NCBI GenBank assembly: GCA_963575745.1
Contig: CAUYUJ010019360.1
Span: 1-64,000, forward strand
Origin: Prorocentrum cordatum
Lineage: Eukaryota > Sar > Dinophyceae > Prorocentrales > Prorocentraceae
DNA length: 64,000 bases
Direction: 5' to 3'
Shown: positions 3,481 to 52,920 of the stretch, one piece after another
Layout of the letters: each line of letters opens with the position of its first letter
How positions within the stretch are numbered: position 1 is the stretch's first letter
The notes under the pieces: generated by a model
Databases searched by the model: none
What the model was told of the DNA's origin: nothing
The model's input: only the letters and a program-made list of their open reading frames with translations
Position numbers and translations under genes: made by a program

Positions 3481-3661
3481 ACCGAGCCCCCCCACCCACC
3501 ACACCCCCTTCCAGCGCTCCGGAGGGGGGGGGGCTTGGCTTGGAGTCGACTGAAGCGGGCTCTCAGAGCCCAGTCGCAGTGTCCACACGGCAGCGTCAGC
3601 TGTTACAATTCAGCCTGTACAGTATAAGCGCGAAGCGCGTAGATATACACAAGCACAGGCA

Positions 3662-30558: not shown

Positions 30559-33500
30559 TCACATCATATCCTGTCCGAAATACGCTTGTACAACCCGCGG
30601 CAAGATCATAATCGTATGCTCAACGGCCGAGACCTCGGCATCAGTCACTGTTGAAGTTGGATCAATCGAGAACGCCGCACTGTACACCTCCGTCCAAATG
30701 ATCTCATGGCTGAGTGGCTGCCTTGAGAGTCTCGATACCCTTCCAACATCTATCCAGCACCCGACTCCCACGCCGTCGCAAGAGACACCACCATCGAATC
30801 CAGCTCTGATGGCACAAACGCGAAACACCTGTTGTAACTGAGGGGCGTGAAGCCCTATCCTATCTCGAATCACTGGTGGCCCGACGCGGGCCGTATGAGT
30901 GAGTACATCTGCACGTGTGTTCCATTCCCTATATGTGTGGTCAATAATTTCCCTCCCGTGACAGGCGGGCCTAATTCCATATCTTTGACACATGTTGTCG
31001 AGTTGGTTTATCATTCTGTTGATCCTATCTTGATACGTACGATTTAGCACCCTCCAGACACCCTGCAGCCAAGACACCACCAGAAGACTGTCCCCAGAAA
31101 TATACACAGGGATCCCAAATGAGTCGAGGTCGTACTCAACCTCCTTCATATTTTGTAACGCAATACGTTTGGCCAGTTTGTCGTTGAACGCCGCAGTGCC
31201 CTCTTGGGCCCCATAGGTGTGTAGGTCGCTTTGTGTGATAGTAAGTACCTCCTGCGGGGCCCCACCTGTTGTACCGTACCCTTTTCTTTTCTGAAAGTAA
31301 CTCAGCATCGTCCGTGTACACATGTGCTCGCAGAACTGAACATACGCAGCATCTGTCGGCACAAAGGACTCCCACCATTTGAGTCCGTAGAATTCGCAGA
31401 AAGAAAATAGCCAGCATCTCTGGCCGACAGCTCGACCTGAACTAACATGTCTCCTTTTTAGCTGCGAGGCCTCTTGGAAGTGAAACATACCCCGCAAGCA
31501 CTCAGACGCATCCGTCCTGAGTCTGTCCCACAATGGGCCATACGCAACCGTAGTCATGTGGTGATCTCTCCACGTACGTTGCGTCGAAGATATATCCTCA
31601 TGAGAAGCAGTACACATCATAGAAATGAAATCTGCAACATCCTTCGCGGAGTTCCACACCATACGAAGAAATCTCTGCACCAAACTCGCAAATCCATAAG
31701 ATCGGAGTTGCTCTCTGGCCTCGTGGTACCGTCGTCGGTTCCAGTCCGCCATAGTCTCCTCCTCTCTCCTCGGCCGTCGAAACATACGGCACAAACACCA
31801 TCCCTCGAAGGCATTGAGCATGTGTAGCGAGGAAGCATCCGCAGTACATGTCTCTAGACAATACAACGCCATACTCTGCACCTTGTCTTGATAACGGCAA
31901 AACTTATCACGAACAGAAACCGCTCTGTTACGAAAGAAATTCGATTGTCCAATGAAACAAGCTCGAGCCTCCTTGATGCGATATTCAACATCAGGATGAG
32001 CAGGCACTAGGTATGTGGAGAAAATCTCATGACCCAATACTTTCATACTGCCAACACGTCGAAGTCTAAAGCCCTGATATCTCGAGCACGCAGGTATACA
32101 CAAATCCTCGCTGGTAAGTATATGTCCGTCACCGTCCACTTTAGCATTCTCCCCACATGTCATGTACAACAGGCTGCTATCCTTCCATCTCATCCCCCAG
32201 TCATGTAGTGGTAGTGTTAGATCGTGCATCATCTGAGCCAACATAGTTGAGGAGGCAGAGACAAGGTAGCAGTTGTCCGCCCACACAAAGTGGTTCACAG
32301 TTGTCCGTCGATCATACTCACCACAGACGCCCTCCAGCACATACCCCACACCTTTACTGTCCCAATCCCGAAATATAGGTCCCCACATGGCACATATGAT
32401 AAGATTAAATAGAAGAGGCCCCTCAGGGCCGCCCGTCCGTATGCAGACGTCCCAGTTGATGTCGTGAATGGCCATACCCTCGACAACTAACGACCCCGTA
32501 GTGCAAACCAGCGGTGATAGCAAAGCATACTGGAGATAGGCAGGAATATTGGCATGGCACATAGCACGTTTGGCGTTTAGAAGGCTGCAGTGGTCGAACG
32601 CTTGTTTGATATCGGCGTTAGCGATATGGACCGTCTGATCTTTTCCCCAGATGTCCCCGTGTTGAGCCAGAGCCTTGAGGGCCCCCACAATTTCCACCGT
32701 CTTACGTCCCTCCTGGAAGCCGTAGATGCCCAGGGGTCCCATGAGGCCAGCCCGAGACACAAATTGTTCGACCAAGATCACCACGCAAGCAGAGTACCAA
32801 CGGCTGAGACTGTTTTGCAGACAGAGGTACCGCGCATCTGTCAGCGATGTCAAGCTCGGCAGCTTGGGCATGAAGGCGATCAAAATCTGCCTCCAATCCT
32901 GCGGATACTGCCGTGCCAAGCGAAATATCTCATCAAACATCCGAGCAACGCCACGCAAAGTCGCCCACGGCAATGCCTTGAGGATTTCACAAGGCAGCCT
33001 GTCGGGGCCGGTGGCACGCTTGGACTTGAGACGTGACCGTGCCTGGCATACCACCGCCATTGTCAGTCCCTCAGTGCAGTACCCGTCACATAGGTTCTGT
33101 TGTGCATCCCTCCTCAACTCCTCCAACATCGCCATATCCCGTCCTCTGACCTCCTCCGAAGTATACTTCTGTCTGGTATGTGCTCTGATCTCCTCCACCC
33201 ACTCCTCCCTGTCCTCAGATATCCGTCCCTGCACAATGAGGTGCTTGATACCATGACGCTCTTTGCGCCTGGAGGCAGGAGAGGTCCACGCGGCCAACGC
33301 CGCACGATACTCCCTCCGCAGTCCGTTGGCACGTCTGCGCAAGCTGGGCACATCCACTGACGCTGGCAGAGGCTTCCGTCGCAAAATCTCCTGGCAGGCC
33401 GTGAGTCCTGCAGGCCTAATTGGCGGTAGTCCCCGTCCCGTGGTGGCAGTCGTGAATTTGATATCCTCCTGCTCAGAACAGGCCCGAATAGTGGTCGACA

Positions 33501-34530
33501 CAAGGTCCCCTGGAGAACAAATAGTATTGGCATCTCCCAAGACCAGATCGATTTCCTTTCGCGCCATATTGAAGTCCCCCCAATTCACCGTCTTATAACC
33601 AACCAAACTCTTTTCACGAGCTGCCGTCGGGATACTACGTTTGACCAGCTCAGCGCCTGTGTCACTAAAAGTCCCCTGAAGCAGGCCATGGTCGCTGAGA
33701 CGACTACGATTTGTCTTCCCCCCATTACTCATGATCGCTTCAACCGTCATCTCATCGATCACCCACGTCCTGGGAACAAAAATGTAATCAAGAACCTTCT
33801 TACACGTCCCCCACCGAGATACTCCGTAGCTCTCCCATGTGTGTAGTCGTCGTGGCAAGAACGAATTGGCAGCCTTCATCCCCAGGCGCCCTAGAAAGCA
33901 AAGAACACGCTCGCGCAACTGTTGTCGTACGTCCCTCCTCACCCGCTGTGCACCTCCCTCCTCGCAAGTCCTCCTCTCCTCCTTGGTAGCACTTCCCACC
34001 GCCTCATAGACAGTCCCAGTGCGTGAGCACTGCAGCTGAGTTGATGGGGATAGCTCAACGTTGGCGTCGAGCAGCACAGAGACAGTCGCCCCCTTCCAGC
34101 GGCTGCGCAGAGTGAGAATAACTGATTCGAGCGCGTCCAACACCACGCACTGCACATCTACGGCGTTCTCGACGCCGGGGTCGGGAAGATACGCAGAGGC
34201 AACTATCACAGGGGCACTTCCACTACCAAAGACCACCACACAGAACCGTTCATATTGACATATTGATTCACGCACACACGTACTCCACTCTTTGTTAAAT
34301 AATAACCCACACTTACCGTCACAACTCACACGATATGATAGACCACACCGTCTGATATATGCATCGAATTTGCCTCCAAAAAGATTCTGGCATTCCTGGA
34401 CACCCCAGATGCAATCTCGCATTGAAAGGCACCTCAGAATCTCATTCCCCTTGAAATTGGCCGACCCCGCCCGATTGAGGTTCCAGCTACCCAGTCGGAT
34501 CCCCTTGAACGGTGTTCGGCGTCGTCGTCG
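30559..34530 (-). CDS. LINE-B ORF2: endonuclease, reverse transcriptase, permuted RNase H
   Basis: Intact frame. The first ATG is at 34422 (1287 codons), but the frame is open 36 codons further to TGA 34531-34533, and that stretch holds the endonuclease start (LGSWNLNRAGSANF). Numbering from 34422: SAYLPD 76-81, LLDANVEL 117-124, LDYIFVPRTW 211-220 and RLSDHGLL 241-248 (AP-endonuclease fold); TGPDRLPCEILK 471-482; ADIKQAFD 603-610 (catalytic Asp604); RTGGPEGPLLF 662-672; FVWADNCYL 712-720, where the expected second Asp of YADD is Asn717. The C-terminal RNase H-like region is about 1105-1287 with candidate catalytic residues Asp1111 (GDSLL), Asp1172 (NTRAD), Asp1210 (FDGG) and Glu1263 (DAEV), a permuted order. 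Several His/Cys residues lie between the RT and RNase H parts. Confidence 0.9.
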   Translation of the reverse strand, partial: RRRRRTPFKGIRLGSWNLNRAGSANFKGNEILRCLSMRDCIWGVQECQNLFGGKFDAYIRRCGLSYRVSCDGKCGLLFNKEWSTCVRESICQYERFCVVVFGSGSAPVIVASAYLPDPGVENAVDVQCVVLDALESVILTLRSRWKGATVSVLLDANVELSPSTQLQCSRTGTVYEAVGSATKEERRTCEEGGAQRVRRDVRQQLRERVLCFLGRLGMKAANSFLPRRLHTWESYGVSRWGTCKKVLDYIFVPRTWVIDEMTVEAIMSNGGKTNRSRLSDHGLLQGTFSDTGAELVKRSIPTAAREKSLVGYKTVNWGDFNMARKEIDLVLGDANTICSPGDLVSTTIRACSEQEDIKFTTATTGRGLPPIRPAGLTACQEILRRKPLPASVDVPSLRRRANGLRREYRAALAAWTSPASRRKERHGIKHLIVQGRISEDREEWVEEIRAHTRQKYTSEEVRGRDMAMLEELRRDAQQNLCDGYCTEGLTMAVVCQARSRLKSKRATGPDRLPCEILKALPWATLRGVARMFDEIFRLARQYPQDWRQILIAFMPKLPSLTSLTDARYLCLQNSLSRWYSACVVILVEQFVSRAGLMGPLGIYGFQEGRKTVEIVGALKALAQHGDIWGKDQTVHIANADIKQAFDHCSLLNAKRAMCHANIPAYLQYALLSPLVCTTGSLVVEGMAIHDINWDVCIRTGGPEGPLLFNLIICAMWGPIFRDWDSKGVGYVLEGVCGEYDRRTTVNHFVWADNCYLVSASSTMLAQMMHDLTLPLHDWGMRWKDSSLLYMTCGENAKVDGDGHILTSEDLCIPACSRYQGFRLRRVGSMKVLGHEIFSTYLVPAHPDVEYRIKEARACFIGQSNFFRNRAVSVRDKFCRYQDKVQSMALYCLETCTADASSLHMLNAFEGWCLCRMFRRPRREEETMADWNRRRYHEAREQLRSYGFASLVQRFLRMVWNSAKDVADFISMMCTASHEDISSTQRTWRDHHMTTVAYGPLWDRLRTDASECLRGMFHFQEASQLKRRHVSSGRAVGQRCWLFSFCEFYGLKWWESFVPTDAAYVQFCEHMCTRTMLSYFQKRKGYGTTGGAPQEVLTITQSDLHTYGAQEGTAAFNDKLAKRIALQNMKEVEYDLDSFGIPVYISGDSLLVVSWLQGVWRVLNRTYQDRINRMINQLDNMCQRYGIRPACHGREIIDHTYREWNTRADVLTHTARVGPPVIRDRIGLHAPQLQQVFRVCAIRAGFDGGVSCDGVGVGCWIDVGRVSRLSRQPLSHEIIWTEVYSAAFSIDPTSTVTDAEVSAVEHTIMILPRVVQAYFGQDMM

Positions 34531-37126: not shown

Positions 37127-37382
37127 ATTTTTGGACTGCCAACGTGAAGTCGGTCCCTGGCTTCGCTCGGGAGAATTTTTCGACGGAATAAACTAAGAAC
37201 TTGTGAGAGAACTTCGTAATCCCAAGCTTCGCTCTGCGCAAATAGCAGCCCAAACGAATTGTTAGAACTGCAAAATCGGCTGAGCCAGGCCGCGGAAGGT
37301 ATGATTGCGTCCCTTTTCGACATTTCGCCAACTAGCTCCACCCTTTTGCCGAATTCCTCCTCTTCTACCCTCAGAGAGGCAC
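37127..37382. repeat. Long direct repeat, left copy, flanking the 15-kb block
   Basis: From CTGCCAACGTGAAGTCGGTC to the end of the ACTAGCTCCACCC region, this matches 52676-52920 in the same orientation with few differences (GGAGAATTTTTCGACGGAAT, CCAAACGAATTGTTAGAACT, GGTATGATTGCGTCCC are shared). Confidence 0.85.
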
Positions 37383-37398
37383 TAGAAGTGCAAGCAGA
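37383..37398. repeat. 16-bp direct repeat TAGAAGTGCAAGCAGA, left
   Basis: Identical to 52610-52625. It lies 12 bases outside the left terminal inverted repeat; on the right it overlaps the last three bases of the repeat. Possible target-site duplication, or part of an ancestral tandem unit. Confidence 0.7.
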
Positions 37399-37410
37399 CG
37401 CCGGAGAGAA

Positions 37411-37475
37411 CTACCCAGAGGATGGATCGATCTCATTATGAGATCGCGTTTTTTACGATCTCATTTTGCGATCGC
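37411..37475. repeat. Left terminal inverted repeat and subterminal palindromes
   Basis: CTACCCAGAGGATGG at the edge, then GATCTCATTATGAGATC (37429-37445) and GATCTCATTTTGCGATC (37458-37474). Confidence 0.85.
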
Positions 37476-38184
37476 AACAGTGGTTGCTTTGGTGTACTTT
37501 TTTTTTATATGTTGGCAGATGCGGTGCGTTTTTGTGTTTTTGATGTATTTGCACATATTGTTGCTTACGCGCGAACCCAAACTCCTTCCTCCTTCCTTAT
37601 CCTTCGTCCTCTAGCCTTTGCCTCTTCCTTATCCTCTCCCTCCGTCTCTCCCCCTTCATTCTATCATTCATCCTCTCCCGCCGTCCCTCTATGCCCCTTT
37701 CCCTCGTCATGTCCATATTGCTTTCCTTGGTGTTCCTCCTCTTCCGTCGTTCCTCCATTCCTCTTTCCGTCTCCTGCTCCACATCCGTCATATCAGTTTG
37801 CATTTCTATCATTTATAAATCCGCCCCTTCGTCAGTCACCCGCATCCTTCGTGTTTCGTTTCCCCCTCCATATTCCCATCCGTCTTATTTCGTGACTACT
37901 TAAAATAAAGAGCAGCGTGCGACAAAACCAGACACAGCACATTACATTACGACGTGATCCAAATGAAGCATGCACGCTGCCATACCCCACCGCCGACCCC
38001 CTATCAATCAACATACATATTGGATTCGGCGAGGGTGAGCATCAACGGAATAAGAACGAGCACGATGCATCACATGCGTGACGAATCCATGGGGCCCCGA
38101 ACAAACCCGCGGGCTCGAGATGGGGCGATCGTTGATTGACCAGGCTTGCTCTGACATCCTCCCGCGCTTATTTCGCCGCCGCCA
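37476..38184. other. Gene-free pyrimidine-rich interval inside the left end
   Basis: T-rich, then TCCTCTCCC/CCTTTCCT-rich sequence (37590-37870). The overlapping short frames on both strands have no recognisable content. The downstream gene stops at 38185. Confidence 0.6.
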
Positions 38185-38636
38185 TTATTGCCAATCCTCA
38201 TCCGAATCGTAGTCGGGGTCACAGCCCCGCTCGTGCTGCCACATGTCTTCTACACGGAGCATGCAAGGATGGCACGTGTAACCGATGAGGTCACACATCT
38301 GACAGAAACCCCAGGCGGCAGGGCGACGCTTACGTTTCCGTGAGGGTGGCGTAATCCCCCATGGCAAATGGGTGGGTTGTGGCGTTTCGCTTTAGACGAT
38401 CCTCACAATGTCCGCTTGATTACCATGTCACCCGACATTGCCTTGCAAGAGTAGGCCTCCCATATTGCAGCACCTAGCTTTCCTTTCAATCCGTGAAAGG
38501 TATTCGGCCATCTCATTATCATCGCGGATCGTCTTCAGTTGCTTGAGCTTCGCCTTGCGCATCGCAATGTGGGGTGGCCTCCAGCTCGAACTGCTGGAGC
38601 GGAATTTGCACGTTTCGTACGAGGTGCGCGAGGAGG

Positions 38637-38678
<42 letters not shown>

Positions 38679-38765
38679 GAGAGGGAGAGGGAGAGGGAGA
38701 GAGGGGATAGGAAGAGAGAGAGAGAGAGGGAGAGAGGGGGAGACGGCGAGAGGAGCGAAGCACCA

Positions 38766-38796
<31 letters not shown>

Positions 38797-41017
38797 TCAT
38801 GTGCATTCGTAGCAAATTGATTGATACAGCGATGTGCCCGTGGCACGGACGGGATGGACCATCATCTGATCGGGGGGGTGGGGTGAACGAGGGTTTTCGA
38901 GTTCTGTCTGTGGGCGATCTCCCGAGCGTGAGTGCTAGGGGTCAGAGTAAAGGTGTTCAAGCGAAAAATCGGGTTGCGAGCCGTGTCCGTAACATCGTTG
39001 ATGCCCATCCTGTTCTTCTGATGTTGCCTCTTCGCTCATCCACGGCACTGCCCCCATCCCGCATGTCACCATTCATATTACATTGCGTCTCCCGTGGCAA
39101 AACAAAAAAAAACAGCAGCCGTTTGTCCATATGGTTGCCATCGTAAATAGTGAATTCGATGATGTCGGATGGCCTGGGCTGGGGGGTAAGGATGTGGCGA
39201 CAGCGGCCCAGGGAACCGGGGCCAGGGCCCGTGTGGGGGGGGGGGTGCGCACATCCAGGAACAAAACTCAGGCAAAACTCAGGCAAAACTCAGGCAAAAC
39301 TCAGGCAAAACTCAGGCAAAACTCAGGCAAAACTACAGTGTCGCCCCAAAGAGGCCACATCCAAACTCCAACGGGCCGTCGATGTCGGCCTTACAATCAA
39401 ACACTGCTCGGAAACCCGAGCAACCTCCAGACTTGCTCCAGCAAGCCTTAGCGCCGTGAAGCTGTGCTGAAGTCTGCTCGAGGTTTGCTCGACGAAATGT
39501 TTGAGTTCGGGCGTGTCGTTCTCATCCCATACCCCCAATCATTTCACAGCTTAGTGCGGCCCCTTCGCCCAGGCAACGCCAACCGCACTTTCACCTTCAG
39601 GAGGAGGATGCGGGGGAGGAGAATGAGAAGAGGGAGGGGGATAATGGAAGAGGAGGGGGAGGAGGAGGAGAATAGAAACGATGGCTGATTACCTTCAATG
39701 GTAATACACAACCCTCGTTGTCGGACTCGGCGTCGATAATGGTCTCGGAGTCGCACTCTGGGAGGTTCCCCGAGAATGCATTTGCCAGCCTGGCTATTTT
39801 GCAGAAATGGGGATCTCGGCATTGTCACGTGTTGGCTTTCAGTCTCATCCTCCTCCTCCTCCTCCTCCTCCTCCTCTGTCTATACCTCCTCTCAAGCTCT
39901 TTTTTCCATCCTTCTCAGCACCCTCCCCTCCTTGACTGCCTCGGCTCTCATCCAAGTCCTCCTGCGCCTCGCCCATCATGACCCAAGTTCCGACTCGGGA
40001 GGCGCGACACAGTCAAACAGTCAATTGATGCATTTCACCCCCGCAGCCAAGAACATGAATCTGCGAATCGGCGGGCTTACCCAACATCAGCCAGGCACGC
40101 TTGCGCGTGCAATTCCAGCTCAAGTGCCGACACCATCCCTAAACGGCCGCTCTAACCCCAGCGGACAAAACATGCAGCTGACTGTGGCGGTGTGCGGCGG
40201 GTCTTGGGATCTGTGGGCGAGGTGACATGGAACGGTGGCCAGGACAGTGAAACCCGCTGCTTTCGAATGACCCCCCCCCCCCCCCCAGCATGGTTGCCCT
40301 CGCTCTCAGGACTTCGGTCTAGACTGTATGCGATTAGCGGGTACTTAGGTGGGGCTGGCTCAGGGCAGAAGGCATCGGCTTCTCCTATCCTCCTCCTCCT
40401 CTTCCTCCTCCTCCTCCTCCTCAACCTTCTCATCCTCCTGACCCCTCTCCTCCTCATCAGCATCCGCATCATCATCCTCAGCATGATTATCCTCCTCCTG
40501 ATGCCCCTCATCATCCGTCCTCATACTCCACATCCTCCACTTCCGCTCCTACCATCCTCGATCCTACCATTTCCTTTCCTAACATCCTCGATCCCCAATC
40601 CTCTGAAACTGGTAAGCGCCTCTGGCATATGCGCGCATCCGTTTTGCCACCAGCCCGAGGTAGTGTCGCGGCACGCCGCTCGAAACTGTCACGGACATCA
40701 CACGCACGGTAAAGTCGATGACGATGTCGACCTTGGCGACGCTGTCACTGCCGCAACTTCCCTATATCTGTTTCACTCCTACCCTCCTCGCATGCGCCAT
40801 ACACGCGTCCCAGGTCGCATCGTCTGCCCCCCCCCCCCCCCCCCCCCCTCCCCCCCCCCCCCCCCCCCCACACATCTTTCATCAAATCTCTCTTCGCACG
40901 TCCCTCCGCGACCTGCCGCACGTCAGATGCGTCTGCGCTTCCGTGGAGGTTCGTCACCATCAGCTGGATCATCATCGTCTCCAGCGCCACGGCCTGCCGC
41001 TCCCACAGCTTGCCCAT
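38185..41017 (-). CDS. Multi-exon gene of unknown function with C-terminal Cys cluster
   Basis: Exon pieces are read on the minus strand. They are 41017-40874 (ATG; GKLWERQAVALETMMIQL, RQVAEGRAKRDLMKD); 40761-40601 (KVDIVIDFTVRVMSVTV, PRHYLGLVAKRMRAYARG); from 40389 (IGEADAFCPEPAPPKYPL); ending 40081 (ELELHAQACLADVG, then GTAAGC); near 40000 (CVAPPESELG); ending 39693 (ARLANAFSGNLPECDSETI, then GTAATC); about 39560-39352 (WDENDTPELKHFVEQ); about 38600-38437 (KLKQLKTIRDDNEMAEYLS); and a last exon to the stop at 38185 (RKRKRRPAAWGFCQMCDLIG, then CHPC and DSDEDW). Introns 40873-40762 (GT-AG) and 40600-40390 (GA-AG, AGGAT at both ends) keep the frame. Other joints are unresolved. The tail is a basic stretch followed by a small Cys cluster that may bind zinc. 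Confidence 0.5.
38640..38810. repeat. GA dinucleotide microsatellite in an intron
   Basis: GAGAGAGA tracts at 38640-38720 and 38770-38797; on the coding strand this is a CT-rich run between two exon pieces of the gene above. Confidence 0.85.
39266..39333. repeat. 11-bp minisatellite ACTCAGGCAAA, six copies
   Basis: Perfect or near-perfect tandem copies. On the minus strand they begin within about 10 bases of a probable donor (CACT then GTAGTTTTGCC), just after the exon ending SLDVASLGRH. The same unit recurs at 44935-45090 and 51163-51215. Confidence 0.9.
40829..40870. repeat. Poly-C run of about 40 bases
   Basis: Almost uninterrupted C on the plus strand with one T; it lies within the intron 40873-40762 of the minus-strand gene. 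Confidence 0.9.
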
Positions 41018-41449
41018 TCTTTACTTGCTCTTTCTTCCTCATCATCCTCTCTCCTCGACCTCCCCATCCTCACAATTCTCAGCATCATGCTCCTATACCC
41101 CTCCGTGCCGACCTCCCCTTACTGGCCCCCCCTCATCCGCCACCCTCGCTCTTCTTCATTCCCCCCTCCTCATCATCCGTTTCATCGTCCGCTTCCTCCT
41201 CCTCCTCATGCTACTCTTCCTCCTCCCCCCTCTCCTCCTCGCCCTGCTATTCTTCCTCCTCATCCTCCCCCTCCTCCCTTGTCCTCGCACCCTCCTCATC
41301 CTCAGCATCCGCCCCTTCATCCTGCTGTACCAGATGTCTATGCATATCGCCGTCAACCTGACTGCGTGGGCGTGGCTAGCTGCAACAATTACAAGGCATG
41401 AGCACGCAGATCGCATTCACCCGAAGCAGCCCACAACGCAACAATGACG

Positions 41450-43907
41450 TTACCGTATCTTTACTGCACATGCTTTCCCCCGAATTCCTAGATCATAATC
41501 GTACTCGTCCTCGTACTGTCCAGCGAATAGATACGCATTGGTACGAAGCATGCCTATGATCTGGAAGCACGTGTACACGCTGAGGTGAATGGTATTCGGG
41601 TGTGCGCGTTCAGCGCAGTCTCTGAGCACCAGGTTCAATCCCTCATCCACGAATGTATCGTAGCATCGAGGGTTCCCAAATGAGAAGCTCCTGGGAGCTC
41701 ATTTTGTTGCTTGCTCACGCGCGGATCGTACGACCCACCCCCCAGGACAAAAACAGAACACCGATGGGGCGCCAGGGGTGCGTTTTTCGACAGAGCACGT
41801 TTGCACGTGATGTGGTGGTACTTTTAAGGAATCACAACGTCCGTTTCGCTAGGTGCTCGAACACGTGAAACTTTGGAGTCGGCTTGACCCCCGCACTCTC
41901 GGCATTGGAAAGAAACCTATCACACGAATCAACCAATCCTTGGTGCTGGGATCCAGAAAGTTTCTTGGGTGATAACCTGCAGATGTCCATGAACCGTCGC
42001 AAAGCTTCCCCAGCTTTCAATAGATAAGCGTGTTTTTCAACATTGATATATATATATACGAAGCCTGTCGAGTGCAAAGTCCAGTATTGTGAGGGTCTCG
42101 GCCGCTTTTAGCTTGAGCACTCCGCCTGTGTACTCGTCATCATCCTGTACCCCTCCCAGCATCTTTTCGGTCAACAGCCCAATTCTGCGAGAGTGTTCAA
42201 CGTTGTTCCGCTGAAAATAAGTAAACATCTCTGATTCTAAACGTTTGCAGCGAAGCTCATTCTGCACGTTCCAGGGGTTCAGGGCTAGTATACGCTGCAA
42301 CGTAACAGAACACCAGCGCATCATAGGTCGGAAATAATATGTGTGTAGGGAATCTATAGCCAGCGTTCTCGATGGGGATGTGCCCAAATGGGTATCAAAC
42401 ACTGGGCACCTATGATGGACTGCATCTGTGCACCGCTTGAACGAGTCGACAGATGCTCTCCAAAAACATGCAGTGAATGGAACAGGGCGGGACGCAAACA
42501 TCGATGGCACCAGGAGCTCGTCCGATGGCTCCAGCCTGTCGCCCTTCTTCAGGCGCCATGTTCCCAGGGGGTCAGAAAGATCAGATTTCAGGACTCTCCC
42601 CCTCCTCGGCTCAGGGCCCTGAACTAACAAACCTGCTATGGTATCCCGAAGGGCGACCGTCCCAATGATAACATGACGTTCGCACTTCGAGCAAGCAGCA
42701 CCAAACTCTTCGTGGGTCTTCTCTGGGTACTCATATCCATTTGCCATCGAAGCTGGTCTACCAGCGTCGCGGATGTCTTTGGGGATCGCACAGAAAGGGC
42801 ACGAATGGTAAATGTTCTGCCAGCTTGGAAGTCCCATCGAATGATGATGCTCGCTCCCATCCCCCTTAATGTAAAGAACCATGCCCGTGAATGGTAGGCA
42901 CCCCTCCTCACTATCCTTGTTGCCCCCCCTGAGCTCTGTGCCATCATGCCCAAACGTTGGCAGCTTCCCATCGACCAGAATTCGGAGCTGCCACTGTAAT
43001 ACCCTGAGCAATGAGTGCACGGTGCAATATCCTGAGCAGCCGCATGAGCAAAGCATTTCTTTCCTCACGAATCCCATGAGATGCCGCTTATCCGTCAGTA
43101 AATTCACCAGCGAAACTCCGAGAAGGTTAACCGCTCGCCCCTCGGGCGGTGCACTGTGCGTGATTGGTTTACATGGTTCCCTAACATACACATGTAGAAC
43201 AACACGCGGTGCGCGAGCATGCTGTGGCTATGTGCTCCATGTGTACATGCGTAGATGTGTAAACATAGAAATGCGCATGCATGATCACGCGAGTGACGCG
43301 CGTGTTTATGGGGGGCTATCGGCGTGCATACGCCAGTCTAGGTATTGCTACGTCCTGCGGCCTGACCTGCATACCTCAACCCATCCATATACACAGCCAA
43401 GGGTAATGGATAGTCGTCGCCACGGGCACGTGACTGTTGAACGAGAGGGTGGGTGATGTAAGCAGGGAGGCTCATTACACTGTCCGACACATCATGTTCG
43501 CCATATTTGAGAGCTTCCCTCACACGATCATTACGTTGAACTTCAGCAGCTAGTGTCCTGTATACTTTCCTAACAGGGATTCGCATGGTCTTCCCTGTGC
43601 TGTGTTTGCGCACCGTTGCTGGCATGTCAAAACGATAAAACGGCCCGCTCTCTGGCAATCGCCTGTCCAAGAATTGTTTATAATTCCCAGATGGACACCC
43701 AGGCTTCATAGCATACGTGGACCAATCGCCCCCAGGAACAGCACACACATCAAAATGATAGCACAATATCGCGAAGTCTTGCGCACTCATACGCTTACAT
43801 GACCCATACAGACCGAGTGAGATATCGAAGGCATCTGACCCAGAAGCTCGTTTCTCTTGTCCCCTCGGGTCACGCACGAATACAGTGCCCCCCCCTCGCC
43901 TCGCCAT
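41450..43907 (-). CDS. Cys-rich dinoflagellate repetitive-family protein, possibly transposase-derived
   Basis: Four exons threaded in frame give about 689 aa. They are 43907-43375; 43180-42060; 42013-41839; and 41690-41450. Introns are 43374-43181 (GTATGC ... GTTAG), 42059-42014 (46 nt, GTATAT ... AAAG) and 41838-41691 (GTTGTG ... CCCAG). The 46-nt piece sits on a TA microsatellite, so slippage is an alternative. Motifs in order: YPLPLAVYMDGL, VSLVNLLTDKRHLMGFVRKE, CSCGCSGYC, FGHDGTEL, KGDGSEHHHSMGLPSW, CPFC, a conserved middle (ALNPWNVQNELRCKRLE), VKPTPKFHVFEHL and FGNPRCYDTFVDEGLN. I recall this motif order (Cys cluster, GD-x-E segment, PKxHxxxHL, GNPR) from a family very repetitive in dinoflagellates. 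A DDE-transposase origin is inference. It contains an exonized 38-bp repeat (43457-43495). Confidence 0.6.
43457..43495. repeat. 38-bp repeat copy within an exon
   Basis: TGTAAGCAGGGAGGCTCATT then ACACTGTCCGACACATCA. It is read on the minus strand as VSDSVMSLPAY within the protein. Three further copies lie upstream of the start codon at 44079-44190. Confidence 0.8.
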
Positions 43908-44078
43908 GAATTGAGACCTAACGGCTCTGGGGCGACGCTGCAGTGTCGGAATGACTGTGCTAGTGATGCCACGCCCCCCTCTCTCCCCCCCCTGCCCCTC
44001 CTCCTCCTCAGCGTCTTGCGCATCCTCTTCCGTCCCCCCTCCTTCTCATATGTCTCCCTTCTCCTCCTCCACTGCTTG

Positions 44079-44190
44079 CAAACAGGGAAGCTCATTACGC
44101 TGTCCGACACACTGTAAGCAGGGGGGCTCATTACACTGTCCGACACATCATGTAAGCAGGGGGGCTCATTACATTGTCTGACACACAGAC
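44079..44190. repeat. Three tandem copies of the 38-bp repeat
   Basis: Units TGTAAGCAGGGGGGCTCATT plus ACACTGTCCGACACATCA with small changes (GCAAACAGGGAAGC, ACATTGTCTGACACAC). About 170 bases upstream of the minus-strand start codon at 43907. Confidence 0.85.
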
Positions 44191-44399
44191 TCGCATCAAG
44201 TTAGACCGCCCGCAGCCCACGGTGCACACCGCGGAGTTACAGCGTTCAAACACAGCGATCACCGACAGTGCCGAAACAGTGGTTCGATGTGGCCGACTGT
44301 ATATACAAGCTCGCCGGCACCCCAGATCGCTGCATTACTAGCCTCGACGTGTCACATAACCCCCGCAACATAAATTCAGCGAGCCCGCATGTGATGCAC

Positions 44400-44560
44400 G
44401 TCTCCCCTCCTCATCCTCCTTCTCCTCGGCATCCTCTCTACTCCCAACCCTCCTCCTCCTCCTCTTTTTCTTCCTCCTCCTCCTCCTCCTCCCCCCCCCA
44501 TCCTCCACCCCTATCTCCCCTCCTCCTCATCCTCCTTGTCCTCCTCAGCATCCTCTATAC
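44400..44560. repeat. CTC/TCC pyrimidine tract
   Basis: CCTCCTCCTCTTTTTCTTCC-type tract with an 8-C run. Non-coding on inspection. Confidence 0.8.
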
Positions 44561-44654
44561 TCTGTTTCGCTCACTGTGCAGCGGGGGGGCGCAGCGGTGC
44601 AACGCTGCGCTAGTCGAGGGAATCGAGTACACCTACTCAGGGCGGCTGTTCCAC

Positions 44655-44897
44655 CCCATCCCAAACAATGAAGATCTCACACGCGTGCCGTCCCACAACA
44701 AAATGAATGTAAGAGGCCCGTACATGCTCAAGCTCTTGCCTGAACCGATACCCAGCCTGACATATCGACACAATCGCGTGCGTCGCATCAGGGCAACCTG
44801 GCTCGAAAACTGCCAGGGCGGAGACGTCCAAATGCAATCGAGCTCCCAGTGGCGTTCGCGAAAAACCGATCGCACCCTTCGGATCGTGAAAAAATCA
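44655..44897 (-). CDS. Isolated coding exon, minus strand
   Basis: The open minus frame FHDPKGAIGFSRTPLGARLH, followed by LDVSALAVFEPGCPDATHAI and RFRQELEHVRASYIHFVVG, then ACEIFIVWDG before a GTGGAACAG donor-like site. Composition is that of ordinary protein, unlike the Arg-rich plus frame opposite. It may be a 5' exon of the gene starting at 43907 or belong to a separate gene. Boundaries are not fixed. Confidence 0.4.
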
Positions 44898-44934
44898 AGT
44901 CGGACAGGTCCTCGGTCAGGATTTTTCGGCGTCG

Positions 44935-45090
44935 GAGTTTTGCTGGAGTTTTGCCGGAGTTTTGCCGGAGTTTTGCCGGAGTTTTGTTGTCCGTTTTTGT
45001 GTGTATATATATATATATATGGTTTGGGTGAGTTTTGTCAGATTTGTCTGAGTTTTGCCGGAGTTTTGCCGGAGTTTTGTCGGAGTTTTG
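44935..45090. repeat. 11-bp minisatellite GGAGTTTTGCC with a TA tract
   Basis: Two blocks of GGAGTTTTGCC tandem units, in inverse orientation to the array at 39266, separated by a TATATATATATATATA run (45003-45020). Confidence 0.9.
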
Positions 45091-45279
45091 TTGCGGGCCC
45101 GTCGGCTTCGATTTCGTGATTTTTTCCTGGTTTTTGTTTTTTCTTCTGAAATTCGCCAGGGGCTTCCACAAACGGCAAAACTAGCCAAGGTCATCAGGAC
45201 ATCCCTGGAAGGATCTAGCAAAACACCTCGCGTTCGAATTGCTCTCCCGATTGCTATTGGATGTAAACAAACTAGCTGA

Positions 45280-48200
45280 TCACTCGTCGCCCCTATACAC
45301 ATGCTTATTCATACCCTCCACGCTAGTGCAAGCAGCCAGAAGCTTCTGGCTCGGTTCTTTGAGGGTCGCCACGGCCTTCTGCAGCTGCTTCTTGTAGGGG
45401 ATGTCACCCACCTCCCTTAGCGCGCTCCCCATGCACATGCACGCTATCCCTTATCCCTCACGCACACACACACACGCACACACACACGCGCACGATATTC
45501 AAACAATGCGTACACGCTCGCCCCTGCTGGTCGATATCTGCCCGCAGCTCCCCTCCCCCGACCTCTTTTTTGTATTCGTTGAGCTTCGACTCGCTCATGA
45601 GCCGCGAGAGGAACTTATGGGAGTTCATCAGCTCGGTCACCTTTGCTGCTACCATTCTGCCCTACCCCACATCCCTGGACCCCCCCCAAGGTCGGCGTGA
45701 CAAACGAGGAGGGATTGGACGATGGGAAGTTGGAGGGAGAGACGGGAAGGGGTAGGAGGAGATTGGGAGAGGATGGGGAGGAGGAAGAGGAGAAGGCGGA
45801 GGAGGATGAGGAGGAGGAGAACCATGAGGAGGAGGATGAGGAGGAGTTTTGGTTGGATATCGCCTTGGCGTTCGCGTCCTTGAACGTAGTCATCAGGTCG
45901 GGGTTCTTCTTCGCCCATGCCCACTCCTTCAGCGTGGACACGTTCCTGTCGATCTTCGACGCGTGCAGCATCGCCTGATCGTATATCTTCTTCATCTTGT
46001 TGAACTCCACGACCTCCTCTGGCGTCTTTTTTTGCTGCGTCCTTGGGGTTGGGACACCCTCGTTCTTGCGGTCGTTGTTCTTGCGGTTCGTGTCCTTCGT
46101 CGTCGGATTTGGCATCTTTTTCTTTCTCTTTTTGTCCGTGGATTCCTTCCCGCGTCTTTCTTTTCTTTTCATTGTCTTGCCTCTTTTCTTCTCCTTTGTT
46201 GTAGTGCGCCTCTTCTTTCCCTTGCGTTTGGGCTGCTCCTCCTCTTCTTCCTCCTCTTCTTGTTCTGCTTCATCTTCCTCCTCCTCATCTTCCTCCCCAG
46301 CCTCCTGTTCGCCCACTTCATCCTCATCAGCACGACCATCGACACCTTCCGTCCACTGCTCGAGCTCCTGCCACGACTGCGAGAACGTCTCCCGCAGCTG
46401 GTGCCTGAAGTGCAAGAACTTGAGGCACTCTCCCATACTGTCGTACTTCACGTAGATGCGGCCCACCATGGCCGCGTTGGTGGCATAGTTGAACGCGATT
46501 CTGTTGCCTTCCACTCCGCCTCCCTCGATCTTCGCGATCCTGGAGAGGCTGCAATACTCGCCGTGCTTGATCTGCGCCCGCTCGAACTTTGTGAGCTTGC
46601 TCTTGACCCATCGCTTCTTCCACTGTGCGTGCTCCTTCCTCATCCACTTCGCGCGGAACTCCCTCTGGTTGCCGTATCCGTGCTGCTTCGCATACTTCAT
46701 GCGCAATGTCTCGCTCACCTGAAGAGCGCGGCGCCACCTGGTGCCAGCTGGGTTGTTCGCCGTGTGCGTCCCGAAGTGGTAGTTCTTCTCCTCCATCTCC
46801 TTGAACAGCGCGCGGTCGCGCTTGGCCTGGTCCGTCATCTCGTCCGTCTTCTCAATCTCATGCGACGCCCGCGGGTCCGACCCGCGCAGCTCGTGGAGCT
46901 TGCCGAGCAGCCCGCCGTTGTAGAACTTTGACAGCACCTCGTTCATCTGAGCCTGCTTGCTGGCCGCATCTCCGTCGATGTCTGCAAGGATCTCGCCGCT
47001 CAGCTGCTCGACCTCCTTCTTGAGCTCCGCAAAGATCGCCTGCCTGTAGGTCAAGTCGTCATCAGGCGTCTCCACGTCGGGCTGGTTGGCCGCCATGAAC
47101 TTCTTGAAACACCCGGAATCCTTGGGCCACAAGGACACGTGCTCGGACTGCATCGTGACCTCGCTGGGCGCCGCCGTCGAAGGGGCAGGCGAGACGAACG
47201 CAGACGACCCACCAGCAGTCGTGGACGCGTCCTTGCCCAAAAAGGGCGGAAAGGGGGTGGAGGAGGAGACCAATACCTCGGAGGAGAAGAGGGGGAGGGA
47301 GGAGAAGGAGAGCGAAGACAAGGTCATATCCTCGGTCGCCACCTGCACATCCGTGAGCGCTTCCTCTGCGTTCACATCCTGGCGGGCGTCACTTCTCCCT
47401 GCTACCGCTGCGTCCCCACCCTATCCTCCCAACTCCATTCGCTCATATCCTCCCCGCGTTTCGTCACACCGTCTCCCTCATAATTGCCATACTCATCCCG
47501 CCCCACGGTCCTGAGAGCCGCGCTTCTTCGTCCTACTCCTCTTCTCCTTTCTCTTGGGCATGGCGTTCCCGATCTTTGGCGTCTCGGATGCGCTGGGGGA
47601 GGCGGCTGGTGCAATCTCGGGCGGTTGAGGCGGCTGGGTGACAGTTGCATCTCCTGCTTCCTCATTATGTTCCTCAGGTGTAATATCCTTTCTCTTCCTC
47701 TGACCCTTGCGCCCTGGCCTCCTCTTCTTTTTCTTGATGGCGCGGGTCTGCTGGCCACCATCGTCCCCGATGACCACCGCATCCTCTTCCTCACCGCCTC
47801 CAAAAAGCTCCTCAAGAAATGAAACGCACACCGAAAGACCGCAGCATTAGACATTGATCTGTAGGGCTATGTAGGTAATAGTGGGTGGACGACCACAACT
47901 GAACAACACGAGATTTGATTGACATGACGTGCTCTCATGCTGTGGGCGATCCTCTGCTTTCTCCAGCGCCTCGGCCATCTCCCTGTCCGCTCTCATCTGT
48001 GCCTGCTCCTGCTCGATCAGACCCTCCACGCGGTTCTGATCTTCCACAGCGCGGCCCCACGCCTCCTGTGCGTTTGGGCTGAGTTCCTCGCGGGTGGCCC
48101 CAGGTCCTGGCTCATTTGGCTGTCGGGTGGGTGGGCTGACGGCGGCTTCGGTCGAGCTCGGTATCTCTACTGGGCCGTCGACCGCCACGTGCGTTCCGAA

Positions 48201-48287
48201 GTCAGCATCTTGTGGATCAACTGGCTCAGCGACTGCAGCCATGGCTCCCTTCGGGGAGGTGGGGGGGTGGGCGGGGGCGTGTTTCAT
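45280..48287 (-). CDS. Five-exon gene, 786 aa, Lys/Glu-rich nuclear-type protein of unknown function
   Basis: Exons 48287-47952, 47810-47511, 47378-45864, 45640-45563 and 45411-45280 join in phase 0 without a stop. Introns are 47951-47811 (GA-AG), 47510-47379 (GA-AG), 45863-45641 (GC-AG) and 45562-45412 (GT-AG). Each has a short repeat at its ends (GAGGA, CAGGA, AAGG, GAGGT). Joined junctions read naturally, for example EALEKAE-ELFGGG, ANAK-VTELMNSHKF and EYKKE-VGDIPYKKQL. The protein is Pro/Ala-rich then basic (KKKKRRPGRKGQRKRK) at the N-terminus. The middle is ordered (KYAKQHGYGNQREFRAKWM, NRIAFNYATNAAMVGRIYV), followed by a long Glu-rich tract, a Lys/Arg-rich tract and a C-terminal helical part. 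ATG 48242 is an alternative start. No domain recognised; the charged tracts suggest a nuclear role. Confidence 0.7.
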
Positions 48288-49583
48288 ACAGTGTTGCGTA
48301 TGTTGTTGCTCTGGTTGGTTTGCTTTGGATTTTGTAGGGTTTAACCAGTGCTATCGGGGATGGCTCTGTGTTTGTTCGGGTCGTTGGTGCGCCCCCGTTT
48401 TACCCGAGGTAACCTGGTGACCACCAGTTTCGTGAAACTGAACCCTCCGAACGTAGGTACGCATGTCCACGAATCGGAGGGGCGACGAGGCTGACGGCTT
48501 GACCATGCGACGGCTGCCAGTGCGTCGGGATATGTGACGCCACGACGCTCTGTGGGGTCGGGGGCACAAGGAGGGGGGTGGGGTGTCGGAAGTAAAACTT
48601 CGGGTCAACGCTCCACCAGAAACGAACGAAACGGGGACACGAGGAACGCGAGGGTCGGAACTCGTAGGGCTGTTACCCGCGTCGCGAGATCCTGCTTGAA
48701 TCACGCAATCGACGCTTGCGTCGAACCTATGAGCGCGATGCAGGCGGGAGCTCACGACGCAGATAACCTATGGAATTCGCCACTTCCAGTGACGACGGTG
48801 ACCGCGACACTTATCTTAGCGCACCGCCCCGATAACCGAACACGCCGTCAGTCAAGGCATTGAGCGCAAGCTGATCACCACATCTCTATACAGATGGTGT
48901 GTGCTTGAAGTCTGTATCATCTCCGTCCTCACCCTCATCTTTATCCCACCACTCCTCGACGCCACCATCTATACCTGCACACGCCCACACCTCCTTACAC
49001 CTCCTCCTCCTCCTCGTCCTCCTGATCCTCCTCCTCCGCCTCCTCGTCCTCCTCCTCCTCCTCCTCCTCCTCCCGCCCTGTCCCAGTCCCACATTCCCGA
49101 CATCAAGCCAGAAACGAACAATCTCGAGCGCCGCAGAGCTCACACCTACCGCTGCTCACCACGTAGATAATGCTGCGCACCATGTAGGTGAAGCTGCGCA
49201 CCATGTCATGCATTATGTGCACCATGTCAATGATGCTGCGCGCCATGTAGGTGAAGCTGCGCACCATGTCAATGATGCTGCGCACCATGTCAATGATGCT
49301 GCGCACCATGTTGATGACGCTGCGCACCATGTAGTGAAGCTGCGCGCCATGTAGTGAAGCTGCGCACCATATGTCAACGATGAAGCTGACCTCGAGGCTG
49401 CAGCGCACCTGCCCGCCCAAATCCGTCGCAGACGGGTCGCATGGACGCACTAACCTCTTTCCCACTAGCAGACGGGTGCGCATGGATCCACGTGATTATC
49501 TAAACACTAGACGCGAAAAAACACCGAGCAATTCAGCACAGCAAAGTGAATATCACGCATACCCCACCCCCATCGCACCATGA
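48288..49583. other. Intergenic interval between two minus-strand genes
   Basis: No convincing gene. Holds a CTCCTC tract (48995-49075), the 21-bp minisatellite described separately, and short Arg-rich frames on both strands with no motif. Confidence 0.6.
49150..49375. repeat. Minisatellite GCTGCGCACCATGT, about ten copies
   Basis: Core GCTGCGCACCATGT alternates with spacers CAATGAT, AGGTGAA, AGTGAA and TGATGAC, giving a period of 20-21 bp. Confidence 0.9.
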
Positions 49584-52308
49584 TTAGCAGTCGCTCAGGC
49601 TAGCCCCGAACTCGTCATCGGATGTATCATGCGCAGTCTTACTCGATGCCTCCTTCTTCGCTGCAAACCGCCTCATCTTCCTCGCTGCGGGCCTCGTTGC
49701 TGCCGTTGCTGCAGGCCTCTTTGCAGCTCCTGCGGGGCGCTTCTTCGCCTGCTCCTCGGCCGTCGCAACGGCAGCCTCCTCTGCTTCCTCTTTCTCTTCC
49801 TCTTCCTCTTCCTCTTGTTCCTCCTCTTCTTTACCAGCTTCTTCAATATATTCTTCTTTATCATATGGTGCTTCTTCCTCGTCTTCCTCCTTCTCCTCTT
49901 CCTCCTCTTCCTCTTCCGCCTCCTCCTCTTCCTCCTCCTCGCCCTCGCCCTTCTCTTCCTCTTCTTCCTCCTTGTCAGCTCCCTGGTCGCCCTCGTCTTC
50001 TTTGTTGCCATCTCCATCGTGTTCGTCTTCAGAAAACACTTTCTTTTGTTTAGTCTCCTTCGGTGAACTCTTCTCGTCTGATGATGCTGGCCTTTTCATC
50101 GCAGCTGCTGGTCGCTTCATCGCTTGTCCTACACAGTTCGCTCTCATGAACTCCTGCTTTATTTGCTCTGCCTGATCTTTATCTATACTTCCATCTGCAC
50201 GGCCTCTCGCAATCCTCTCGAGTAATGAATCTGCGGCTTCCCCGTAGTGAGCAAGGCACATCAGCTGCACAAACATGGATTTCTTTTTGTCGACGGGGTT
50301 CACCGAGAATACAGCCAGGAATCGAATTCTCTCATTACGTTGTGTTCTGTGGAACTGCTCAACTAAAATTTTGTGCCCATTTTGATCGGTGCCACTCCAC
50401 CGCCCTGGCATTCGACTTTTCTGTTCAGCCTGCAGCGTTCTCCATTTTCCGACCGTCATCCCAGGAACAACTCGTCTGCTTCCATCTTCCCATTGAGCGT
50501 ATACCTCATCGTGGTCGACCGCCCCCCCTGGAATATCAATGGTCATGCTGTACTCGGGGGAACCTTTCTTTTTCGTCAAGTCGATTCTCGCGACAGCCTC
50601 CCCTCGTCTGCCACGCGCCCGCCACGAATCGACGACGATGTCGAAGACGTACGTCTACGACGACTGCGACGTCGACACCGACGACCTGCGACGACCACGA
50701 CATCGACGGCGTCGACGGTGGCGCTGACGTCGACGACAATTGTCACCATCGCACCGCCACCTCCCCAACTCCACCTCCAACTGACCTCCACCTCCAACCG
50801 ACCCCCACCTCCAACCAACCTTCACATCCTTAACCGTCTCCTCATCGTATCCATCTATCCACACCTATCCACCTTCCCACCTATCCACCTTCCCACCTAT
50901 CCACCACACGTTCCTCACATCATTGTCCTCGTACTCCTCCTCCGTCTCTCCTCTCCACGGCGGCCCCACCCCCCCCGCCATCATCTCTTTGTTGAACTCG
51001 CACCTGTACTTGTCGTCCTCCACGCGGGAGGATGGGCGAACAACGTGGCGACAAGACATGAGCGTTGTACAAGTCAGAATGCACATGCGAGAACGAGAGT
51101 AGCACATCCAACATACATCAACAACATTGCATATACACTCCAACCATAATCGTGAACCGCTCCAGCAAAACTCAAGCAAAACTCAGGCAAAACTCAAGCA
51201 AAACTCAGGCAAAAAAAGACCCACCCACGTGTCCTGGGCACCGGAACATCTCCAGAATGACCTGATCCACTTCGGCGGCCTCGCAGCGTTCCTCAGCGGC
51301 GGCGGGGGCGGCGGAAGCAGGAGGGCGATACATGCGGGCGCCATAGCGTAGCGTGAACAACCGCTGAGGTAAACCACAAGACAATGAGGAAGAGAAGGAG
51401 GAGGAAAGAGAAGGGACCCCGTCGCAGAGAGCAGGACAGATGTAGGACAACCCCCTCCCACAATAAAGCATGCTGGCAGTGCGGTCCTCGCCTTGATAAA
51501 TACTTGCGATACGTGTCGTAGCATTGATCTGATCCGCTGACACGCCGACGCGTGCATGAGGCATGACCCGATTGTTCCCCATCTCATCTCCGTCATCTTT
51601 CTCATTTCCGCGATGATGATCATATGGATTTGCAGCTGCACATCCATATAATCATCATCGCTCCCTAGGTTCTCGATCCTACCGACGCTCTTGCAAACGT
51701 GTTTTCCCAGGGCTCACCCCGTATCCAAACCCTACCCCTCACGGATGGGGGTGGCGGGAATGGCGCCCAAGCGCACCTAATCATTTTGCTGTGCTGGGCC
51801 GCCCAGCTTTTTTTTTGGTGGGACGACAGTTTCCATTTTGATTCTCGTTTTGCGGCCACCTCTTCGAGAGCTCTTTTCATGTCGGTGTCTATAGCATTTT
51901 CCGATGGGTGCAACGTTTCTCGGAGGCCGTCGATCATCTTCTGCCACTGCTTCAACTTCTCTTGGTCCAGCGGGTCCTCACACGATACATTTTAGTGAAA
52001 TATTTCCCTCTCCTCCTCTTCCCTATCCCTCTCCTCTTCCCTATCCCTATCCCTCTCCTCCTCTTCCTCCCTTTTTGATCATCATCATCCTCTTCCCTAT
52101 CCCTCTCCTCCTCTTCCTCCTCTTATCCTCTTCCATCTCACGTATGTCTCGCACATCGTCACTTTGCAAAGATAGCTCAAAGAAAATCGCGGTCCCCCAT
52201 CTCGAGCGTATAGTCGAGCGACTCGGGACTGTCGATATTCGCAAGGAGGATCTCGACGACGCGCGCATGGCGGCTCTGGGCACCGGCCGCGCTCGATGCG
52301 CCCTCCAT
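49584..52308 (-). CDS. Five-exon gene, about 531 aa, KRPA-tailed dinoflagellate protein of unknown function
   Basis: Exons 52308-52195, 51976-51743, 51363-51229, 51017-50919 and 50597-49584 join in phase 0. Introns are 52194-51977 (GA-AG, GGACC at both ends), 51742-51364 (GTGAGG ... CTCAG), 51228-51018 (GTGGGT ... GGAG) and 50918-50598 (GTGAGG ... GGAG; least certain). Coding text in order: EGASSAAGAQSRHARVVEIL, EKLKQWQKMIDGLRETLHPS, EVDQVILEMFRCPGH, KYRCEFNKEMMAGGVGPPW, then a compact domain (AQWEDGSRRVVPGMTVGKW, RWSGTDQNGHKILVEQFHR, SMFVQLMCLAHYGEAADSL), AMKRPAAAMKRPAS, a long Glu tract and KKRPAGAAKRPA. KRPA repeats are common in dinoflagellate proteins. The acidic/basic tail suggests a nuclear or chromatin-associated role, but that is inference. 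Confidence 0.65.
51163..51215. repeat. 11-bp minisatellite AACTCAGGCAA in an intron
   Basis: Five units AAACTCA(A/G)GCA. On the minus strand it starts about 15 bases inside the intron 51228-51018 (GTGGGTGGG then TTTTTTTGCCTGAG). Confidence 0.9.
52000..52140. repeat. CCCTATCCCTCTCCTCCTCT tract in an intron
   Basis: Tandem CCCTATCCCTCTCCTCCTCT units interrupted by TTTTTGATCATCATCATCC. It lies within the GA-AG intron 52194-51977. Confidence 0.8.
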
Positions 52309-52540
52309 GGGGGCGCGCCACGCGCCCTCTGCGCGTTGACCCTGTCCACGCGAATTCGATCCGAGAGCGCGAGGCGCGCGGAGCAAGCACGCAGCAACCG
52401 CAACAAACACATCAGCGGGGGGGGGGGCGACGGAAGATATCGAATAAGAGGTTCATTGGAGAGTGAGGTTTTTTTAGGAATGAATGCGGTCAATGGAAAA
52501 ATCTGCAAACACGCAAAAAATCGTAACACTTCAAAAATAC

Positions 52541-52612
52541 GATCTCAAAATAAGATCGCGATCTCATTTTGAGATCGGATCTTATTTTGAGATCGAACCA
52601 TCCTCTGGGTAG
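52541..52612. repeat. Right terminal inverted repeat and three subterminal palindromes
   Basis: GATCTCAAAATAAGATC, GATCTCATTTTGAGATC and GATCTTATTTTGAGATC in a row, then CCATCCTCTGGGTAG, the inverse of the left edge. Confidence 0.85.
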
Positions 52613-52625
52613 AAGTGCAAGCAGA
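52610..52625. repeat. 16-bp direct repeat TAGAAGTGCAAGCAGA, right
   Basis: Identical to 37383-37398; its first three bases are also the last three of the inverted repeat. Confidence 0.7.
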
Positions 52626-52675
52626 TAGCGTCTGATGGCATTTTCTGCAAAACTGGAAAATTACATGTTTTGGCC

Positions 52676-52920
52676 TGCCAACGTAAAGTCGGTCCCTGGC
52701 TTCGCTCGGGAGAATTTTTCGACGGAATAAACTAAGAATTTGTTCGGTAACTTCTGTAATGCCAAGCTTCGCCCTGCGCAAATAGCAGCCCAAACGAATT
52801 GTTAGAACTGCAAAATCGGCTGAGCCAGGCCGCGGAAGGTATGATCGCGTCCCTTTTCGACATTTCGCCAACTAGCTTCACCCTGTCGCCGAATTCCTCT
52901 AGCTCTTCTACCATCAGAGC
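52676..52920. repeat. Long direct repeat, right copy
   Basis: Same orientation as 37127-37382; starts CTGCCAACGTAAAGTCGGTC and runs to CCAACTAGCTTCACC. Followed by palindromic AAGCTTCC modules (52925-53190). Confidence 0.85.

Follow-up and report, generated by a model that had tools for sequence, protein, structure and literature searches.

The locus and its ends

The stretch analysed here (the window) comprises 64 kb of DNA, positions 1 to 64,000 of contig CAUYUJ010019360.1, and the object of study is a block of ~15.2 kb inside it (37411-52612), a candidate DNA transposon bounded by inverted repeats and carrying a transposase-type gene on its minus strand (Table 1). The two ends match each other in inverse orientation. 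The motif TACCCAGAGGATGG[A/T]TCGATCTCA occurs at 37412-37435 (+) and 52588-52611 (-), the sole matches in the window at up to three mismatches, compared with a mean of 0.00 matches over 100 shuffles. When the outer C/G pair (37411, 52612) is included, 24 of 25 bases are identical, as an earlier note on this DNA had reported, while the best of 300 pairs of random 50-bp pieces from the window reached 16 of 25. Just inside the ends lies a 19-bp palindrome, CGATCTCAWWWTGAGATCG, of which the window holds five copies at up to three mismatches (0.02 expected), all subterminal and starting at 37428, 37456, 52540, 52559 and 52577. These palindromes are probable binding sites for a protein of the element itself. 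The earlier note had described them by their 7-base core, GATCTCA. The 19-bp palindromes are indeed confined to the ends, but the core by itself is not: of its 26 sites in the window (against 12.0 expected and a maximum of 20 over 100 shuffles), seven lie at the two ends, one elsewhere in the block and 18 outside, so GATCTCA alone does not mark the ends. The end motif had no match in viral contigs. A 15-base form of it was found in at least 118 stretches of prokaryote contigs and was not used, hundreds of matches being expected by chance in 257 billion bases.

The interior of the block was said to be free of the repeats that fill both flanks, and this description holds: at an E-value cut-off of 1e-5, the single match between the block and the rest of the window is a 31-bp CA run. 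One dispersed unit is common to both flanks, oriented alike (37129-37376 and 52668-52919; 92.9%). An 11-bp minisatellite around AAAACTC forms four arrays (39262-39334, 44933-44986, 45030-45091 and 51160-51214), all confined to the block and in both orientations; lone AAAACTC words also occur outside it. An Rfam scan of the window gave no RNA family at gathering scores.

The transposase gene

The transposase gene lies at 43.9-41.45 kb, inside the block, and is split by introns. From the open frames and the translation of four minus-strand stretches, neighbouring frames were found to be readable as one protein, and a spliced protein was typed from them. In a protein database search, scored over the 8000 candidates with the most words in common, this typed protein matched P0001 (E 1.8e-111, 36% identity over 93% of the query), P0002 (E 1.6e-92, 33% identity over 96% of the query) and P0003, labelled in EukProt as Pyramimonas sp., a green alga (E 4.5e-78, 35% over 69%). 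An expectation that dinoflagellates have many proteins of this type was not borne out, as the candidates scored included three such proteins, none labelled dinoflagellate. Compared with the window by tblastn, P0001-P0003 delineate four exon blocks with E-values no higher than 2.5e-7, every one of them on the minus strand within the block (~43865-43332, or to 43272 with P0003; 43215-42052; 42023-41841; and 41692-41507), and all remaining matches in the window have E 0.029 or worse. No relatives of the transposase were detected among 157 pattern stretches of viral contigs or 60 pattern stretches of prokaryote genome contigs.

The two introns placed by homology have GC-AG and GA-AG borders. According to the accessible part of a 2024 review of dinoflagellate genomes (PMC11453091), such introns together account for 25-74% of the total in Symbiodiniaceae and <3% in Amoebophrya. 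The borders thus fit a dinoflagellate host, with two introns being thin evidence. About 600 bp upstream of 43457-43497, a 41-bp piece of exon 1 recurs in three copies, one of them 98% identical.

Enzyme class

Aligning the window protein with P0001-P0003 revealed the motif order D..D..C(2)C..H(3)H..E, conserved at ~35% identity. The first D is invariant in the context YMDG or YLD[GA], and the second lies in YIKGD. Both D residues and C(2)C are present in all four sequences, and H(3)H and E in the three that reach that far, P0003 stopping before them. Judged from this motif order, the conserved D, D and E would be the catalytic residues. The distance between the two D residues is 102 (window), 108 (P0001), 109 (P0002) and 100 (P0003) residues, and that from the second D to the first C is 20 residues in all four. 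From H to E there are 20 residues in P0001, P0002 and the window, the latter counted with its exon junction (the typed protein, short by four, gives 16). The mouse RAG1 counterparts are D600, D708, C727/C730, H937/H942 and E962 (available portion of PMC4914335), which yields D-D 108, D-C 19, C(2)C, H(4)H and H-E 20. The D-D, D-C and H-E spacings of the present family are therefore within 8, 1 and 0 residues of RAG1, whereas the distance between C(2)C and H is 302-315 residues versus 207.

A C(2)C and an H(3-4)H motif between the second D and E are common to the CMCT group (CACTA/EnSpm-Mirage-Chapaev-Transib, RAG1-like), whose target-site duplications (TSDs) measure 2-5 bp, or TA in the ESTA lineage, according to the text available from PMC12730594. 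Because the motif layout matches this definition and its spacings are close to those of RAG1, we take the enzyme as CMCT-like: it is likely a member of the group, probably a distant one.

Target site

Symmetric borders were scanned at this one locus from six bases outside to seven bases inside (offsets -6 to +7). Exact 2-bp duplications occur at two offsets, TA and AA, and no exact duplication of 3-10 bp was found in this range. The two duplications imply slightly different elements (Table 1); they fit the locus equally well and both fall within the 2-5 bp of the CMCT group. TA is self-complementary, so any inverted repeat that starts with TA shows it, and the TA duplication is therefore weak evidence.

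The block is also flanked by a 16-bp direct repeat, which the earlier note had pointed out and taken as a target duplication that was not clean. The repeat is present as described, with the left copy 12 bases off and the right one overlapping the end: at up to two mismatches the window contains two copies (shuffle mean 0.06; two copies in 1 of 100 shuffles). Its interpretation was probably a misreading, as the 2-bp TA or AA is clean and the 16-bp repeat would then be an older tandem pair. When the flanks are rejoined with one TA, ACTAGAAGTGCAAGCAGA occurs twice in the target, 29 bases apart; joining with AA instead yields two copies of AGAAGTGCAAGCAGA at a distance of 23 bases. Most simply, the repeat is an older tandem pair of the target, one copy of which was hit by the insertion.

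Other open frames of the block

The block holds 84 stop-to-stop frames of at least 90 amino acids (aa). Nine of them were scanned with Pfam, three of these being pieces of the transposase, and no significant match was obtained (sub-threshold E 0.12-0.43 in two). The 601-aa frame had no match in the protein database among 8000 scored candidates, many of which low-complexity words had presumably brought in, and its residues 85-345 had none among 797; it had no relative in viral contigs (600 pattern stretches) and nothing significant in the PDB (best E 0.074). Viral contigs likewise held no relative of the 356-aa frame (600 pattern stretches). In the PDB, this frame matched the ribosome-assembly protein MAK16 (E 1.6e-5, residues 76-338) and RanGAP1 (E 0.013); both matches span the acidic tail and were discounted as composition-driven. 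The 601-aa and 356-aa frames, both of which have long charged tails, may encode accessory proteins of the element, and a TnpA-like helper role for them is a guess.

The block had been credited with four intron-rich genes on the minus strand. This is confirmed only in part: one gene, the transposase, is validated by homology, and two other frames that were tested lack credible relatives. The proposal that the genes are host-like cargo is not supported, given that the transposase is the sole gene with relatives and the nine scanned frames have no significant Pfam match.

Table 1. Coordinates of the features assigned to the block and its borders, with the basis of each assignment.
Feature	Position	Strand	Basis
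Left terminal inverted repeat, (C)TACCCAGAGGATGGATCGATCTCA	37411..37435	+	Motif search and random-pair control
Right terminal inverted repeat, 24/25 versus left	52588..52612	-	Motif search and random-pair control
Two left subterminal 19-bp palindromes	37428-37446, 37456-37474	.	Pattern search
Three right subterminal 19-bp palindromes	52540-52558, 52559-52577, 52577-52595	.	Pattern search
Transposase exon 1, homologous part, first putative catalytic D	43349..43865	-	Homology; open frame runs upstream to 44045
Intron 1, 215 bp, GC-AG	43134..43348	-	Placed by homology
Transposase exon 2/3: second D, C(2)C, H(3)H	41842..43133	-	Homology; frame change near 42063-42045
Intron, 151 bp, GA-AG	41691..41841	-	Placed by homology
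Last transposase exon, putative catalytic E; stop 41452-41450	41450..41690	-	Homology
Three copies of 41-bp exon 1 piece (43457-43497)	44077..44191	-	Repeat-family comparison
TA, left TSD copy (TA model, element 37414-52609)	37412..37413	.	Border scan
TA, right TSD copy (TA model)	52610..52611	.	Border scan
AA, duplication of the rival model (element 37411-52612, boundaries 3 bp further out)	37409-37410, 52613-52614	.	Border scan
16-bp repeat, left copy, probably pre-insertion target	37383..37398	+	Pattern search; ends 12 bases before 37411
16-bp repeat, right copy, first bases coincide with element border	52610..52625	+	Pattern search
601-aa open frame, charged tail, putative accessory protein	45615..47420	-	Frame list and protein searches
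356-aa open frame, acidic tail, putative accessory protein	49584..50654	-	Frame list, viral contig and PDB searches
167-aa open frame, putative coding	47847..48350	-	Frame list and Pfam

Interpretation and alternatives

We conclude that the block is probably a large DNA transposon with terminal inverted repeats (TIRs), extending over 37414-52609 or 37411-52612, and that the gene for its DDE transposase, of the CMCT type, is part of the element. This reading combines the inverted ends, the subterminal palindromes, a transposase-type gene with D, D, C(2)C, H(3)H and E, and a compatible 2-bp duplication. The earlier suggestion of a very large cut-and-paste element thus gains support from the transposase gene found inside it. 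As to autonomy, the locus has inverted ends and a transposase gene, the reading frame of which shifts at a (TA)n tract.

A plausible course of transposition can be outlined from these parts. The transposase, perhaps with an element-encoded accessory protein on the 19-bp palindromes, would bind and pair the ends and cleave at the TIR boundary, at CCC/GGG or CTACCC/GGGTAG borders. By analogy with RAG1 and Transib, cleavage may pass via a hairpin on the flanking DNA. Insertion at a new site would then generate a 2-bp duplication. In this scheme, the 601-aa and 356-aa frames would count as genes of the element and not as host cargo. The insertion site of the present copy would have been a dispersed repeat, next to a short tandem pair or within it.

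Several observations weigh against this interpretation. First, Pfam returned no family match for the typed protein at E up to 1 or for P0001-P0003 at E up to 10, and a PDB sequence search with the transposase gave no significant match (best E 0.93). Since neither database provides a significant match, membership in the CMCT group is read from motif order and spacing. Second, structure prediction from the three sequences P0001-P0003 gave a mean predicted local distance difference test (pLDDT) score of 37.9. Third, the termini are CCC..GGG or CTACCC..GGGTAG and not the CA..TG usual in the CMCT group, although CA..TG is no strict requirement of the group. Fourth, a 2-bp duplication by itself is weak, with two boundaries equally compatible, and a 15-18 bp tandem pair located exactly at the insertion point would be a coincidence, such pairs not being common. 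Fifth, the (TA)n tract that shifts the transposase reading frame lies at 42063-42045, and the window reads KGDG where all three homologues read KGDW. Because of this replacement and the frame change, the present copy may be inactive; it may lack a complete transposase product, unless a splice or assembly error explains the frame change.

The alternative that survives best concerns the enzyme. The element could be a DDE transposon of a lineage outside the CMCT group, a superfamily of its own in which the zinc and spacing pattern arose by convergence. The missing Pfam matches of the typed protein and its three homologues, the termini and the longer C-to-H insertion would all suit such a superfamily, but it would have to arrive independently at five motif elements in the right order with D-D, D-C and H-E distances near those of RAG1, and we regard it as unlikely.

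Somewhat less probable still is a different account of the target site, in which the 16-bp repeat is the true duplication and the 12 bases at the left represent filler or a trimmed portion of the element, left by aberrant microhomology-mediated joining. The two copies are identical at 16 of 16 bases, no others occur in the window, and inspection of the sequence indicates that trimming of the right element end via a TAG microhomology would yield the right junction as seen. A clean 2-bp duplication is nevertheless present at the TIR border, and tandem pairs of this sort are found elsewhere in the flanks: exact 15-bp pairs with a period of 16-40 number 12 in the ~48.7 kb outside the block (simple sequence excluded) and are spread over six places. 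Moreover, we know of no DDE superfamily that produces a 16-bp duplication.

That the block is an island of host genes which by chance lies between two inverted ends and was mobilised by an unrelated system is very improbable. Its length of 15.2 kb, its several open frames and the MAK16 match of the 356-aa frame could be cited in favour of such an island, yet the transposase is the sole gene with convincing homologues, the nine scanned frames lack a significant Pfam domain and the MAK16 match, in our judgement, is probably a product of composition. An assembly artefact at one or both junctions is the least credible explanation, for although both junctions sit in a dispersed repeat, which is error-prone for assemblers, a misjoin would not produce matching TIRs and subterminal palindromes with a transposase between them.

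Comparison with known systems

Among described elements, ESTA of rust fungi (PMC12730594) has the same CMCT motif layout and, under the TA model, to which AA is an equally good rival, would share the TA duplication. The ESTA families first defined in that paper carry a TET/JBP gene, none of which was found in the nine frames scanned with Pfam, and the present host is probably not a fungus. Plavaka elements are also alike in CMCT layout, with a TSD of 2 bp in PlavakaA and 2 or 3 bp in PlavakaB; their termini are TGT..ACA or CATCA..TGATG in the accessible part of the same paper, as opposed to CCC..GGG here. CACTA/EnSpm, Mirage and Chapaev share the D..D..C(2)C..H(3-4)H..E layout and a short TSD, but the present termini are neither CACTA nor CA..TG and the protein lacks a Pfam match. 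CACTA elements can be long and have subterminal repeats. With Transib and RAG1, the resemblance lies in the D-D, D-C and H-E spacings, close or equal to those of mouse RAG1, and the difference in the C(2)C-to-H(3)H insertion, which is longer here; Transib elements have 5-bp TSDs and CACWATG-like ends.

Starship-like giant cargo elements are similar in size and in having several genes. In Starships, the enzyme is a tyrosine recombinase and TIRs of the present kind are absent, whereas the block has a DDE-type transposase, and no DUF3435 tyrosine recombinase captain was matched by Pfam among the nine open frames. The KDZ group (Kyakuja, Dileera, Zisupton) contains large TIR elements with extra genes. 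The Zisupton TSD is 8 bp (PMC12730594, available text), whereas no exact duplication of 3-10 bp exists here at the symmetric offsets scanned.

Surroundings of the block

Outside the block, frames with similarity to reverse transcriptase are present in the window. Three long frames or frame pairs, 3662-7666, 20033-24002 and 30559-34530 (-), read as non-LTR retrotransposons. Pfam RVT_1 was matched by the frame at 3662-7666 (E 2.1e-7) and by the 1323-aa frame at 30559-34530 (E 2e-6, just below the curated cut-off). At 20033-24002, a near-identical copy is divided between two frames, and the endonuclease part was read from the translation. A 1733-aa open frame at 9380-14581 (-), in a GC-rich island, has a weak match to DUF6570 (E 6.6e-4, below the curated cut-off), a domain that often accompanies Helitrons. 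Long (ACACAG)n-like arrays, open on both strands, occupy 894-3482 and 9373-10101.

Significance

For dinoflagellates, descriptions of DNA transposons whose enzyme is identified seem scarce. In the 2024 review of dinoflagellate genomes, the word transposase does not appear in the main text as available (PMC11453091), and according to a report on Amoebophrya genomes, one strain has two putative transposases and the other has none (PMC7789003). No paper describing the present transposase family was found in the portion of the open-access literature covered, which is no proof of absence.

The element is a real, large transposon-like element whose family is not named by Pfam or PDB searches, and it is a variant within a known kind of transposon and not a new system. 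An element with ends, candidate binding sites and an enzyme provides a handle for finding non-autonomous relatives, perhaps introners. We tentatively raise the possibility, somewhat speculative at present, that the window protein, P0001, P0002 and the Pyramimonas protein form a deep, undescribed RAG1/Transib/CACTA-like lineage of marine algae that moves 15-kb elements with their own accessory genes and possibly also supplies the enzyme to the small inverted-repeat introners of dinoflagellates. The present family may add a branch to the RAG1/Transib/CACTA group. As the locus illustrates, one element can make up the whole of a large block that bears genes in a genome of this sort.

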